From: Gemmatimonadota bacterium
GTDB lineage: Bacteria; Gemmatimonadota; Gemmatimonadetes; Gemmatimonadales; GWC2-71-9
Direction of reading: 5' to 3'
Assembly: GCA_029262155.1 (NCBI GenBank)
Contig: JAJCZW010000048.1
Coordinates: forward strand, 1-33,747
DNA: 33,747 bases
Made by a program: the position numbers and the translations under genes. Below are positions 2,799 to 28,874 of the stretch, piece by piece. The notes under the pieces were generated by a model. That model was not told where the DNA came from. It made no database searches and saw only the letters and a program-made list of their open reading frames with translations. Numbering within the stretch: the first letter of the stretch is position 1; every line of letters starts with the position of its first letter.

Positions 2799-4799
2799 GT
2801 GGACACGCTTCACGAATCCCACTTCCCTCACACCCCCAGGCCCATGACCGATCAGATTGACACCCTCCTGACCGAGCAGCGCAGCTTCTCACCCGACGCA
2901 TCCTTTCAGGAGGCAGCACTCGGGGCGGCCGATCTGTACGCTGCCGCCAGCACCGACAGGCTCGCCTTTTGGGCCGACCAAGCTCGCGCGCTCGATTGGA
3001 TCACCCCGTGGAAGGAGGTTCTCAACTGGACCCTCCCCCACGCCCGGTGGTTTGACGGCGGCCAGCTCATCGTGGCGGCCAACTGCCTCGTCCGTCTCCT
3101 GCACGGACCCAGACGACAAAAAGCTGCTATCATGTGGGATGGCGAGCCCGTTGATCGACGGGTGTACACCTATTGGGACCTGGCCCGCGAAGTCGGTCGC
3201 GCCGCCAACGCGCTCAAGACCCTCGGAGTGACGAAAGGCGATCGCGTCGCCATCTACCTACCGATGATCCCTGAAGCGGCCATCGCCATGCTGGCCTGTG
3301 CCCGGATCGGAGCGATCCATTCTGTGGTCTTCGGAGGCTTTTCCGCCGAGTCGTTGCGGGACCGCATCAACGACGCGGAAGCCGTCGCGCTGATCACTGC
3401 AGACGGAGGATATCGTCGAGGCCAGGTGGTCCCCCTGAAGCGGTTTGCGGACGAGGCGGTCGTGGGCTGCCCTTCGATCAGGGATGTGATCGTAGTACGC
3501 CGGGTCGGTGGCGGTGAAGGTGGGGCCAGCGAGACCTTCGCGTCGATGACGGAGGGCCGGGACCATTGGTGGCATCGTCTCTTGGAGCATGCCTCTGCCG
3601 ACTGTCCCCCTGAACCGATGGAAGCCGAGGACATCCTCTTCATCCTCTACACGAGTGGCACGACCGGCGCACCCAAAGGGATCGTCCATACCACCGGTGG
3701 CTACCTCACCCATACCACCGCCACCACCAAGTATGTGTTCGACCTCAAGGACGAAGATGTGTTCTGGTGCACCGCCGACGTCGGCTGGGTCACCGGACAC
3801 AGTTACGTGGTCTACGGACCCTTGGCCCACGGCGCGACGATCGTAATGTACGAAGGTGCACCTGATTGGCCCGACCGCGATCGGTTCTGGTCGATGGTGG
3901 CCACCCACGGCGTCACCGTCTTCTATACCGCACCGACAGCCATCCGCGCCTTCATGAAGTGGGGACCCAGCTACCCTGCCAAACACGACCTCTCCACCCT
4001 TCGTCTCCTGGGCACCGTGGGCGAGCCGATTAACCCCGAGGCTTGGATCTGGTATCACGAGCAAATCGGCAAGGAACGATGTCCCATTGTGGACACCTGG
4101 TGGCAAACCGAGACTGGAGGGATCATGATCACCCCACTCCCGGGAGTCACGACAACCAAACCGGGTTCCGCGACGAAACCGTTCCCCGGTATCGAAGCGG
4201 AGTTGGTCGATGCCCAGGGCCGTCCCATGGCCGGTGGCGGCGGATTCTTGACAATCACCTCTCCCTGGCCCGGGATGCTTCGCACTATCTGGGGAGACGA
4301 CCAACGCTATCAGGAGACTTACTGGAGCCGTTTCCCGGGCCGCTACTTCGCGGGCGATGGCGCCAAACTGGATGAAGATGGGTACTGGTGGATTCTGGGA
4401 CGGGTCGACGATGTGATGAATGTGGCTGGACACCGGATTGGATCGATGGAGGTCGAGAGTGCCCTGGTCGACCACCCATCCGTGGCCGAGGCGGCGGTCG
4501 TTGGGAAGGCCCACGACCTGAAGGGCCAGGCCATCGCAGCGTTTGTCATCCTGAAGGAAGGACAGACCGCATCGCCGTCGCTCCGGGATGACCTTCGCGA
4601 TCATGTGGTCGGGAAAATCGGAGCCATCGCGAAACCGGAGGACATCTTCTTTTGCGGTGACCTGCCCAAGACCCGCAGTGGAAAGATCATGCGTCGGTTG
4701 CTGAAAGATATCGCGGAGGGACGCACACTCGGCGACACCACCACTCTGGCGGACCCTGCGGTCGTCAGTCGGTTGAAAGAGATGTACGGGGAGGAATAA
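2799..4799 (+). CDS. acs: Acetyl-CoA synthetase (AMP-forming)
   Basis: The enzyme activates acetate with ATP and CoA through acetyl-AMP, feeding acetate into the TCA cycle and lipid synthesis. It is 666 residues from the GTG at 2799, or 651 from the ATG at 2844; the family is about 650. Visible in order are the ACAS N-terminal region (LDWITPW), the P-loop-like [13 protein letters not shown], the acetate-pocket/ATP segment ([11 protein letters not shown]), [10 protein letters not shown], the hinge region [18 protein letters not shown], and the catalytic C-terminal lysine in [11 protein letters not shown] (Lys629, or Lys614 from the ATG), which is the residue controlled by acetylation in other bacteria. 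I kept the GTG because it has AGAGG nine bases upstream, while the ATG has only a weak AGG. It ends 7 bp from the convergent kup gene. Confidence 0.95.
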
Positions 4800-23117: not shown

Positions 23118-23169
23118 CCCTTGCCGACGCACAATCATCTATTAGTCTTGAGGGTAGGACAATCCATTT

Positions 23170-23219
23170 CGTGGCGATTTGCGCGATTGCGGCCACGTAA
23201 AAAAATCCGCTAAAACGCA
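23170..23219 (+). ncRNA. Predicted SAM-II riboswitch upstream of metH
   Basis: The elements lie in the SAM-II order. P1 is CGTGGC (23170-23175) with GCCACG (23192-23197). The loop strand starts GATTT (23176-23180), then GCG (23181-23183), then ATTGC (23186-23190). The A-rich strand lies at 23199-23205, then GCTAAA (23209-23214), then CGC (23216-23218). GCG pairs with CGC as the pseudoknot, and GC of ATTGC pairs with GC of GCTAAA. From memory, the crystallised metagenomic SAM-II aptamer has the same GAUUU, AUUGC and GCUAAA blocks with ACC/GGU as the pseudoknot pair, so this site keeps pairing with different bases. The known role is to bind S-adenosylmethionine and repress methionine or SAM genes; the next gene is metH. 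Confidence 0.85.
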
Positions 23220-23243
23220 GCCCTGGCCCGTTTTGGCCGGGGC
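23220..23243 (+). terminator. Hairpin directly after the riboswitch, possible attenuator
   Basis: A 9-bp stem GCCCTGGCC / GGCCGGGGC (one T-G wobble) with loop CGTTTT begins one base after the riboswitch end. The trailing sequence TTCGTATT is only partly T-rich. The 5' arm TGGCC (23224-23228) is complementary to GGCCA (23191-23195) in the 3' arm of P1, so the hairpin and an alternative fold exclude each other. It could be a SAM-dependent terminator, or only a stable element near the metH ribosome binding site (GGAG, 23252-23255). Confidence 0.45.
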
Positions 23244-23262
23244 TTCGTATTGGAGCCTCACC

Positions 23263-26200
23263 ATGGCCCACACCATTACCGCCCCGGATCCGACCCTGGA
23301 CCCTGCTCGTCGACGCAAGCATCGCATTGCGACACTTGGTCCCCTGGCCGATCGCCGTATCCTGATCTTGGATGGGGCGATGGGCACTATGATCCAAGCC
23401 CACCAACTCGACGAGGCGGGGTATCGCGGCACACGGTTCCGTGAGGCGAAACACGACCTTCGGGGGAACAACGATCTCTTGAGTCTGACGCAACCAGCCA
23501 TCATCCGTCAGATCCATACCGCGTACCTCGACGCAGGCGCAGACATCCTTGAAACCAACACCTTCAACGCCAGCGCCCCCTCCCAATCCGATTATGAGCT
23601 TGAGGCGTTAGTCGAAGAACTCAACTTCCACTCCGCCCAAATCGCGCGGGCAGCCGCCGATGAAGCCGAAGCCGCTGACCCGACACGCCCGCGTTACGTT
23701 GCCGGCGTCCTGGGGCCGACCAACCGTACCGCATCACTCTCTCCCGACGTCGGAAATCCGGCGATCCGCAATGTGACGTTCACTGAATTGGCCGACACCT
23801 ATGCGGTCGCCACCCGTGCCCTTATCGCCGGTGGCGCAGATCTCCTCCTCGTGGAGACCGTTTTCGATACCCTGAACGCCAAAGCGGCCCTCTTCGCCAT
23901 CCGGAAGGTTCAGGATGAAACCGGAATATCCCTCCCGGTGATGATCTCCGGCACCATAACAGATGCCAGCGGCCGGACGTTAAGCGGGCAGACGCCAGAT
24001 GCGTTTTGGATCTCGGTGGCACACGCCCGACCCTTCTCCGTCGGGCTGAACTGTGCCCTTGGTCCGGCCGCACTTCGGCCCCACGTCCAAGACCTGGCCC
24101 GAATCGCCCCGGTGCGCGTGAGCACCCACCCCAACGCCGGGTTGCCTGATGAGTTCGGCGACTACCTGGAAACACCCGAGGCGATGGCCACCGTCCTCGC
24201 CGAGTTTGCACGGGCCGGGTTGGTCAACATCATCGGAGGGTGCTGTGGGACAACGCCGGAGCACATTCGAGCGATGGCCGATGCGGTGAAAGAGATTTCC
24301 CCACGGCAGGTGCCGGCGGCCAGCGGGATGACTCGATTTGCCGGCCTGGAGCCGCGGGCCGTCGGCCCCGATTCGCTCTTTCTCAATATCGGCGAGCGTA
24401 CCAATGTGACCGGCTCCCGTCGATTTGCTAAACTGATCCTGGACGGCCGGTACGAGGATGCCCTGGAGGTTGCCCGCCAGCAGGTTGACGCGGGGGCCCA
24501 GATGATCGACATCAACATGGACGAAGGATTATTGGATTCCGCGGAGGCGATGACCACTTTCCTTCGCTTGGTTGCCACCGAGCCGAGTATCGCGCGGGTA
24601 CCTCTGGTGATCGATTCGTCGTCCTGGCCAGTGATTGAGGCGGGCCTCCAGAACGTGCAGGGGAAACCGCTCGTCAACTCGATCTCTTTGAAAGAGGGTG
24701 AAGACGAATTCCTCCGTGAAGCTCGGTTGGCGCAGGCCTATGGTGCGGCCGTCATCGTGATGGCCTTCGACGAGCAGGGTCAAGCGGACACCGCCGATCG
24801 CAAAGTGGCCATCGCTACACGGGCCTATCGGTTGTTGATCGCGGAGGCTGGCTTCGAGCCGCATGACATTGTCATCGACCCCAACATCTTCGCCATTGCC
24901 ACCGGCATAGAAGAACACAACAACTACGCTCAGGAGTACCTCGAGGCTATTCCCCGTATCAAAGAGGCGTGTCCGGGAGTCCTTATCAGTGGTGGGGTGA
25001 GCAACGTTTCCTTCTCCTTTCGGGGGAACGATGCCATTCGCGAAGCGATTCACAGCGTCTTTCTCTATCATGCAATTGCCGCCGGGATGGATATGGGGAT
25101 CGTGAATGCCGGCCAACTTACGATCTACGACGACATTCCCACCTCCCTCCGGGAACGGGTCGAGGATGTCGTCTTAAACCGGAGGCCCGACGCAACCGAA
25201 CGGCTGCTGGAGGTGGCCGATCAGGTGCGCGGTCGAGCGGCAACCCGCACCGCCGACCTCTCCTGGCGCGAGCAACCTGTCGGCGAACGTCTCGTCCACG
25301 CCTTGGTCGAGGGTATCACCGAATGGATCGAAGCCGATACCGAGGAAGCCCGCCAGGGGGCGTCGCACCCGATCAAGATCATCGAGGGGCCGCTGATGGA
25401 TGGGATGAACAAGGTGGGCGACCTCTTTGGGTCAGGGAAGATGTTCCTTCCCCAGGTCGTCAAGAGTGCCCGGGTCATGAAGCGGGCCGTCGCCCATCTG
25501 ATTCCATTCCTGGAAGCCCTTAAGGTCGCGGAGGGAGGCTCAGAGACCACGCACCACACCAAGGGGCGGATCCTCATGGCGACCGTTAAGGGTGACGTCC
25601 ACGACATCGGGAAAAATATCGTCGGCGTCGTGCTCCAGTGTAACAATTACGACGTGATCGACCTTGGGGTCATGGTACCATCCGCGAAGATTCTTGAGGC
25701 GGCGCGCAGCCACCAGGTCGACATCGTCGGGTTGAGCGGCTTGATCACACCATCACTGGAAGAGATGACCCATGTCGCCCGGGAGCTGGAACGGGAGCAA
25801 TTCGCCACGCCACTCTTAATCGGTGGCGCGACCACCTCCCGCACCCACACCGCCGTCAAGATCGCTCCTGGGTATTCCGGTCCGACCGTGCATGTTCCGG
25901 ACGCTTCCCGGGCAGTCGGTGTCGTTTCCCGATTTCTGAATCCTGCCGAAGCCCCCGCCGCAGCTGCCGCCCTCCGGACCGAATACGACGAGATCCGGCA
26001 GCGGCGTGCGTCTGCCAGCGAAGGACGCACCCTCGGCACCATTAGGGCTGCGCGCGCTCACCGCCTCCAACTCAATTGGGCTGGATCCCCCCCTCCCACT
26101 CCGAAGATCACCGAGCCCCTCATTCTGGACGGGTATCCCCTAGAGGAACTGGTGAGTCGGATCGACTGGACGCCGTTTTTCCATGCGTGGGAGTTCCGTG

Positions 26201-27039
26201 GGGCATACCCTGCCCTCCTCGACGACCCAACCACCGGGTCGGCAGCTCGAGATCTCTTTCAGGACGCCCAGACGCTCCTGTCGCGGATCGTCGACGAGTC
26301 GTGGCTCACCGCGCGGGGCGTGGTGGCTTTCTTCCCCGCCAACACCATCAATGACGATATCGAACTCTACGTCGACCCAACCCGCGAGGCGATCCGAGCA
26401 ACCATCCCCACCCTGCGACAGCAAATGACCAAGCGAGACGATCGCACCAACCTGTCCCTGGCGGACTTTGTAGCGCCGAAATCGACCGGAGTGGCCGATT
26501 GGATCGGTGTCTTTTCGGCAACGACTGGGATCGGATTGGACACCGTCATCCAACGATTCGAACAGGCACACGACGACTACAACGCGATCCTGGCCCGTGC
26601 GCTCGCCGATCGTCTTGCGGAAGCCCTCGCCGAACGACTCCACGAGAGGGTGCGGCGCGAATGGTGGGGATATGCGCCCGATGAAGATTTCGACAACCGT
26701 GACCTGGTGAGCGAAGCCTATCAGGGCATTCGCCCGGCGCCAGGATACCCTGCCTGCCCCGACCACTCCGGCAAGACAACCCTGCTCTCCCTCTTAGGGG
26801 ATACCGCCTCAACCGGCATCACCCTCACCGAATCATTCGCGATGCTACCCACGGCCTCGGTGAGCGGATACTACTTTTGGCATCCCAAGGCCACTTACTT
26901 CGGCGTCGGCCGGATCGGGAGAGACCAGGTTGAGGACTATGCCCAGCGCTGTGGCGTCTCCATTCCTACCGTCGAACGGTGGTTGGCCGTGAACCTGGGC
27001 TACACACCACCCTCCGCCAACGGAGACCCGTCGGCATGA
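23263..27039 (+). CDS. metH: Cobalamin-dependent methionine synthase
   Basis: This is a 1258-residue full-length MetH, which transfers the methyl group of 5-methyltetrahydrofolate to homocysteine through methylcobalamin. Module 1 binds homocysteine with zinc ligands Cys264 (GLNCALGP) and Cys327/Cys328 (GGCCGTTP). Module 2 is the pterin-binding barrel (about 365-650, [16 protein letters not shown]). Then come the cap and the B12 domain, with the cobalt-ligand His780 in DVHDIGKNI, and the C-terminal reactivation domain (about 930-1258) with [12 protein letters not shown] and [10 protein letters not shown] for SAM-dependent repair. The ATG at 23263 has GGAG about eight bases upstream; the frame open from 23179 runs through the riboswitch and was rejected. 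The stop overlaps the next gene as ATGA. Confidence 0.97.
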
Positions 27040-28874
27040 ATCCCCTTCGCGTGTTACTGGACGATGGCAAGGTGCATGTGTTCGACGGTGGGATGGGAAC
27101 CGAACTGTACAATCGAGGGGTTTTTCTCAACATCTGTTTCGATGAACTCGCGATTCGGCAGCCCGAGTTGTTGCGGGATATTCACCGTGAGTACCTCCAA
27201 GCCGGAGCCGAAGTCCTCGAGACCAATACGTTTGGAGCCAATCCGTTCAAACTCGCCCACTACGGCCTTGCCAGCGAAACCAAAACGCTCAACCGCGAAG
27301 CCGCGAGGGTCGCCTGCGAAGCCGCCCATGACCGTGCGGCGGTGGTTGGCGCGATCGGCCCCCTCGGTATCCGGATCGAACCCTTCGGCGAAACCAGTCG
27401 GGTCGAGGCGGAAGACGCGTTTCGGGTGCAAGCGGAAGGGCTGTTAGAGGGTGGAGTCAACGGCATCATACTCGAGACATTCAGCGACGTTGAAGAGTTG
27501 GGCGCCGCAGTTGCTGCGGTCCGGTCTCTGACGGACCTGCCCATCCTCGCCCAGATGACGATCGGGCCGGACGGACGGACCATCTATGGAACGGCACCAG
27601 AAAGTTTCGGCCCCGCGCTGTCGGCGATGCAGGTCGATGCGGTCGGGGTGAACTGTTCGGTGGGCCCGCAGGGGGTGCTCGAAGCGGTGGAAAAGTTGGT
27701 CAATGTCGTCACCCTTCCTGTCATCGCCCAACCCAACGCCGGCCTGCCACGTCCGGTCGGTGACCGCAAGATCTACATGGCGTCTCCCGAGTATATGGCA
27801 AGTTACGCACGACGGATGGTCGAGGCGGGAGCGCGCTTTGTCGGTGGATGTTGCGGGACGACCCCAGCCCATATCCGCGCCATCCTTGGATTTGTGCAAA
27901 GCGTGACGCCCCGGTCAGGGCCAGCCCAAGCGGTCAGTCCCCCAGATATCAAAGGGGTCGATCCAGTTCCGCTGACGGAGCGATCGGCCCTTGGGGCAAA
28001 ACTGGCAGCCGGTGCCTTCGTGACGACAGTGGAGATCGTGCCGCCCAAAGGGATCGATCCGGCGCCGATGTATGCTCAAGTACGCGCATTGAAAGAAGCC
28101 GGGGTCGATGCCGTCAATATCCCCGACGGTCCCCGAGCCCAAAGCCGGATGGGGGCGCTCCTCTCCGGAGTGATGATCGAACGGGAGGTGGGGCTGGAGA
28201 CGGTGGTCCACTACGCCTGCCGCGACCGCAACCTCCTCGGCATGTTGTCGGACCTCTTGGGGGCGTCGGCGGCAGGGTTGAGAAATCTCCTTCTGGTAAC
28301 CGGGGACCCGCCGAAGATGGGACCCTACCCCGAAGCGACTGCGGTTTTCGATATCGATGCGATTGGCCTTACCAACTTGGTCGCACGCCTGAACCATGGC
28401 CTCGACCCAGGTCACAACGCGATCGGCAAACCGACCCGCTTTGTGATCGGTGTGGGTGTGAACCCCGCTGCGACCGATCTGGAAAAGGAGTTGCGCCGAT
28501 TTGCCTGGAAGGTCGAGGCCGGCGCCGAGTTTGCCGTGACCCAACCAGTCTTTGATCTTGATCAACTTGATCGTTTCCTCAAACGGATCGAGTCGTACCA
28601 GATCCCGATCATTGGAGGTATCTGGCCGCTCGTCTCCCTTCGGAACGCCGAGTTTCTGGCCAACGAAGTTCCGGGGATCACCGTCCCGAACGAGGTCCTC
28701 AAGCGGATGCGCACGGCAAGCGAAGGCGGCAAGGAGACCGCCCTCGCTGAAGGCGTTACCATCGCGAAAGAGATGCTCGCCGCCGTCCGGCACCGGCTTC
28801 GCGGAGCCCAAGTGTCTGCCCCACTCGGCCGGGTTCCGGTCGCGCTATCGGTGTTATCTGCCGGGCTGGAGTAG
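27036..28874 (+). CDS. Bifunctional homocysteine S-methyltransferase / methylenetetrahydrofolate reductase
   Basis: This is a 612-residue fusion. Residues 1-300 form a zinc homocysteine-methyltransferase barrel ([14 protein letters not shown]; zinc ligands Cys207 in NCSVGP and Cys272/Cys273 in GGCCGTTP). From about 330 to 600 is a MetF-type flavoprotein domain, with VEIVPPKG holding the active-site glutamate, TGDPPKMG, and [13 protein letters not shown] at the C-terminal face of the barrel. MetF reduces methylene-tetrahydrofolate to the methyl form that MetH uses. The layout matches YitJ of Bacillus. ATG overlaps the metH stop by 4 bp, so both are probably under the same SAM-II leader. What methyl donor the N-terminal half uses is unclear. 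Confidence 0.94.

Follow-up and report, generated by a model that had tools for sequence, protein, structure and literature searches.

A predicted SAM-II riboswitch ahead of a metH operon in Gemmatimonadota, with a candidate antiterminator

The metH operon and its leader

The stretch of DNA analysed here, referred to as the window, comprises 33,747 nucleotides from a member of the Gemmatimonadota, whose source genome was available as a 3.2-Mb assembly of 259 contigs (90% complete). For identification of the genes at the locus, a combination of Pfam and NCBIfam models was used. The B12-dependent methionine synthase gene metH (1258 amino acids) lies at 23263-27039 on the forward strand. By Pfam, its product has the complete set of homocysteine, pterin, both B12, and activation domains, and the NCBIfam models PRK09490 (2004 bits) and TIGR02082 were both matched above cut-off. 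At 27036-28874 (+) lies a gene for a homocysteine S-methyltransferase/methylenetetrahydrofolate reductase fusion, which scored 692 bits against PRK08645 (cut-off 453) and carries S-methyl_trans and MTHFR domains by Pfam; the two target genes named in the original prediction were thus upheld. The ATG of the fusion gene at 27036 overlaps the metH stop codon as ATGA, and the two genes are therefore most likely one operon. No match to MetE was found in the source genome, at 90% completeness, so that MetH is apparently the principal methionine synthase. Two cobalamin riboswitches were noted at other sites in this genome.

The origin of the DNA had been surmised to be gemmatimonadotal, with which the relatives of metH agree. 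The nearest named ones belong to Gemmatimonadales, Gemmatimonadetes, and Gemmatimonadota bacteria (67, 65, and 63% identity, respectively), and below these identities relatives are mixed with Proteobacteria and others. A named relative within the window's own family is likewise a Gemmatimonadales bacterium (TY_FP_2_bin.28; locus L032): its SAM-II match coincides in position and score with that of a genome assigned to this family (G341), and the match of L033 coincides with that of a genome assigned to the same order (G170). From these coinciding coordinates the window can be placed in Gemmatimonadales.

In the metH leader, a Shine-Dalgarno sequence, GGAG, is found at 23252-23255 (+), 7 nt before the metH ATG. 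A standard sigma-70 scan of the leader returned no promoter. Reading by eye, a TAg-n-TTTG-like motif recurs ∼20-28 nt before the first helix (P1) of the element described below in the majority of the family's metH leaders, and on this recurrence a putative −10-type element, TAGTCTTG, was placed at 23143-23150 (+), from which transcription would start at roughly 23155-23160. The recurrent motif is reminiscent of the −7 box of Bacteroidota.

The aptamer ahead of metH

When the whole window was searched by cmscan, two Rfam matches exceeded their curated cut-offs. At 23161-23236 (+), SAM-II (SAM_alpha, RF00521) was matched with 46.8 bits against a gathering score of 36 and an E value of 1.1e-7, or 1.3e-9 when the element was searched alone. 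The class that had been proposed from inspection is therefore the one assigned, significantly, by the covariance model. The other match, unrelated to the first, was a c-di-GMP-I riboswitch (RF01051, 51.2 bits) at 2582-2485 (−), after which the same strand carries a GC-rich hairpin with a T run and then a frame of ∼100 residues (ATG near 2433) that by eye resembles a STAS-domain anti-sigma-factor antagonist. The related SAM-II long loop motif (RF01726) matched the window weakly, with 30.9 bits under a gathering score of 44, and was rejected, as was a below-threshold match to Spot 42, which was set aside.

All parts of a SAM-II aptamer are present, as originally described, within the 50 bases at 23170-23219 on the forward strand. 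The P1 hairpin (23170-23197) is built from 6 bp between CGTGGC (23170-23175) and GCCACG (23192-23197), and its loop holds GATTT (23176-23180), the pseudoknot 5′ strand GCG (23181-23183), which a script identified as giving the longest pairing with CGC, and ATTGC (23186-23190). There follow an A-rich strand (23198-23208), the SAM-core strand GCTAAA (23209-23214), and the pseudoknot 3′ strand CGC (23216-23218). These parts correspond to those of the known metA element, or SAM_alpha (RF00521; PMC1273637), namely P1, GAUUU, AUUGC, an A-rich strand, GCUAAA, and a pseudoknot; that element also sits before methionine genes, with a hairpin between aptamer and gene. The H-type pseudoknot aptamer of the Sargasso Sea metX element (PDB 2QWY; PMC5352136, PMC10907184) is similarly alike.

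Conservation of the motifs in orthologous leaders, on which the assignment was expected to stand or fall, was found in an alignment of 23 leaders from the window's family: GATTT, TTGC, and GCTAA are invariant, and the sixth base of GCTAAA is G once, in the second of two copies at one locus (L131). An over-threshold RF00521 match lies directly upstream of metH in 28 of 30 loci of this family; of the other two, L126 has an upstream match of 32.8 bits and L133 has none. No RF00521 match was obtained in 14 control genomes. A degenerate or chance match without function can be given a negligible probability, since the score lies 10.8 bits above cut-off, the only SAM-II copy in the source genome stands exactly before metH, and the element is conserved across these 28 orthologous leaders. 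We conclude with high confidence, from sequence comparison, that the element is a SAM-II riboswitch, predicted to bind SAM, with the metH operon as its target.

For the pseudoknot, it had been proposed that pairing is kept while the bases change. GCG is kept in all 23 aligned family leaders and CGC is nearly invariant, and other leaders of the phylum carry GGC/GCC, CGC/GCG, or GCC/GGC at the matching places, in line with that proposal. At least three Watson-Crick pairs between loop and tail could be formed in 65 of 78 distinct phylum aptamers (GGC/GCC, GCG/CGC, CGC/GCG, and others), to be compared with a mean of 51.8 and a maximum of 65 of the 78 in 2000 shuffles of the tails; the GC-rich letters raise the background, so that support from covariation is only moderate.

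The expression platform and mode of control

A GC-rich hairpin of 10 bp, AGCCCUGGCC-CGUUUU-GGCCGGGGCU, with a calculated stability of −20.5 kcal/mol, is located at 23219-23244 (+). It is terminator-like, but the U tract after it, UCGUAUU, is weak; a generic terminator scan found no terminator in the window's leader. A GC-rich hairpin follows the aptamer in nearly all leaders examined, and in relatives the equivalent hairpin is usually followed by at least 5 T in 10 bases. Because the U tract of the window is poor, termination here may be weak or assisted, and the mode of output is less certain.

The 3′ part of the aptamer is complementary to this hairpin. A proposed antiterminator would join GCTAAAACG at 23209-23217 to CGUUUUGGC at 23229-23237 (both +) through 9 bp, one of them G-U, with a stability of about −9 to −10 kcal/mol; a complement of this length was equalled by 0.2-1% of dinucleotide shuffles. 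Across the window's family, the sequence CGUUUU(A/G)GC, which is complementary to the aptamer's GCUAAAACG, spans the hairpin loop and the first bases of the 3′ arm, and in the leader alignment the TTT of the loop is invariant and the flanking arms are variable. Among 20 metH leaders of the family type (tail ACGC), 17 have a complement of at least 8 bp, although related leaders are not independent and pooled shuffle statistics therefore overstate the complementarity. At one locus (L136, the same element as L015), a core strand GCTAAAAAGC (GCUAAAAAGC) is accompanied by a matching GCTTTTTGGC (GCUUUUUGGC). Outside the family the complement is mostly absent, reaching p ≤ 0.02 in 23 of 109 phylum aptamers; since strong complements are confined to the window's family, the idea of an antiterminator common to the phylum was rejected. 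A tail-GCGC subgroup (e.g. L184, L186, and L033), often found before metF, has a loop of GGAGGC or AAGGC with the tail GCGCC; the antiterminator of the family was not seen in the expression platform of this subgroup.

The SAM pocket with its pseudoknot, the antiterminator, and the hairpin compete for shared bases and cannot all form at one time. When growing prefixes of the leader were folded, the antiterminator was the minimum at 23237-23239 and the hairpin afterwards. As the hairpin (−20.5 kcal/mol) is far stabler than the antiterminator, switching would need to be kinetic.

The arrangement of aptamer, antiterminator, and hairpin is the usual one for an OFF switch by attenuation, and it is likely that the SAM-II leader lowers expression of the metH and fusion gene operon in this way when SAM is plentiful. 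Transcription would start a few bases ahead of P1. When SAM is scarce, the free 3′ strand GCUAAAACG would pair with CGUUUUGGC as the antiterminator, which would block completion of the hairpin at 23219-23244 and allow RNA polymerase to read into metH. When SAM is bound, GCUAAA and CGC would be held in the SAM pocket and in the GCG/CGC pseudoknot, respectively; the antiterminator could then not form, and the hairpin would form in its place and stop transcription ahead of the ribosome-binding site. For attenuation by way of this particular antiterminator, the complementarity and the folding order tip our judgement somewhat in favor.

Terminators often follow published SAM-II elements (PMC1273637, PMC2258182), and the metZ element of S. 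meliloti (PMC9373788) has a predicted SAM-promoted Rho-independent terminator downstream of its aptamer, as proposed here, although its target gene and lineage are different and the U tract of the window is weak. The poor U tract would also suit control of translation, in which SAM alters access to GGAG at 23252-23255 and the hairpin at 23219-23244 is a spacer. The minimum-energy fold of the leader pairs 23210-23213 with a UUGG overlapping GGAG, and four other leaders of the phylum (L007, L008, L011, and L014) carry AGGATG right after the pseudoknot strand, which is a layout for direct occlusion. In the window, however, the Shine-Dalgarno sequence begins 34 nt past that strand, outside the aptamer, unlike the Sargasso Sea metX element, whose ribosome-binding site is part of the pseudoknot strand and is occluded directly, and the pairing with GGAG is just 4 bp long and was not seen to be conserved in other metH leaders, whereas U tracts are usual after the hairpins of relatives. 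We therefore regard translational control of this operon as rather unlikely. In the genomes of L007, L011, and L014 (G232, G111, and G114), no metH was found and the fusion gene alone follows the SAM-II element; AGGATG stands only a few bases past the pseudoknot strand in these leaders, as also in L008, pointing to direct occlusion rather than a terminator there.

The same minimum-energy fold could be taken to describe an ON switch, in which SAM would free the 3′ strand from pairing in the Shine-Dalgarno region and so raise metH expression. That pairing is short and was not seen in relatives, and in the literature SAM-II turns methionine genes off (PMC1273637, PMC9373788), making such a direction of control very improbable. 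Returning to attenuation, our confidence is evenly balanced on a wider proposal: that the family's SAM-II element has a conserved platform in which the SAM-binding strand GCUAAAACG pairs with the loop and 3′ arm of the hairpin and is thus used either for the ligand pocket or for the antiterminator, and that this element governs metH and a one-carbon fusion enzyme, targets unreported for SAM-II in the surveys consulted.

Occurrence in Gemmatimonadota and relation to known SAM-II elements

Searches of 395 genomes of the phylum gave RF00521 matches in 262, in 221 of them above cut-off. Among 109 distinct phylum aptamers, the first downstream gene is metH in 47, the fusion gene in 17, and metF in 11; O-acetylhomoserine sulfhydrylase (6), metX-like genes (4), hom, thrC, and a few others make up further targets. 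These counts are biased towards metH because 30 of the loci were fetched through MetH, and, as the longest frame nearby was counted as the downstream gene, small classes (e.g. panB) may be misassigned.

The possibility that metH-linked SAM-II is general among bacteria with related metH loci was set aside: among the 80 nearest named metH loci it was seen only in L032 and L033, both from Gemmatimonadota, using a signature script that recovers 23 of 30 controls and may thus miss some loci. L032 is the same-family relative TY_FP_2_bin.28, with SAM-II at C203:23727-23800 (46.2 bits). In L033, from another family of the same order, the element (3984-4059) stands ahead of a frame that on inspection looks like metF, metH lies beyond it, and the order of the operon differs from that of the window. 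Two loci, L131 (1384-1460 and 6226-6301) and L139 (1379-1453 and 6144-6218), have separate SAM-II elements for metH and the fusion gene, in tandem; there each gene has its own element, whereas in the window one element is shared by both.

In the surveys consulted, SAM-II elements come from other lineages, and Gemmatimonadota are named in none of them. Corbino et al. (PMC1273637) reported SAM-II in alphaproteobacteria and, in a few instances, in other proteobacteria and in the Bacteroides group, and the holders given by Barrick and Breaker (PMC2258182) include alpha- and gamma-Proteobacteria and Bacteroidetes. Within Proteobacteria, Leyn et al. found SAM_alpha in Rhizobiales and Rhodobacterales only, with metY as its core target and hom, metA, metX, metC, and metW as others; in one family, metH is instead a target of the SAH riboswitch. 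The window thus differs from published elements in lineage (Gemmatimonadota versus Proteobacteria or Bacteroidetes), in targets (metH and the fusion gene versus metA, metX, and metY), and in the letters of its pseudoknot, GCG/CGC. In full-text literature searches, which covered papers outside subscription, no joint account of SAM-II and Gemmatimonadota was found. Since the existing Rfam model has no difficulty in finding these elements, automated annotation may already list members from this phylum. The suggestion that the element widens the range of SAM-II holds against the surveys consulted but not in the sense of an exception: being phylum-wide and found by the existing model, it is an extension of range.

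The understanding of SAM-II itself is unchanged by these results, and its wide use in the phylum, together with the gene targets, is modest news. A riboswitch class that the surveys consulted describe from Proteobacteria and Bacteroidetes, mostly for earlier steps of the methionine pathway, occurs widely in a phylum with few cultured members, where it is predicted often to control the last, B12-dependent step of methionine synthesis. The result can be used to annotate methionine control in Gemmatimonadota, and it offers a simple case in which transcription attenuation by SAM-II could be studied.
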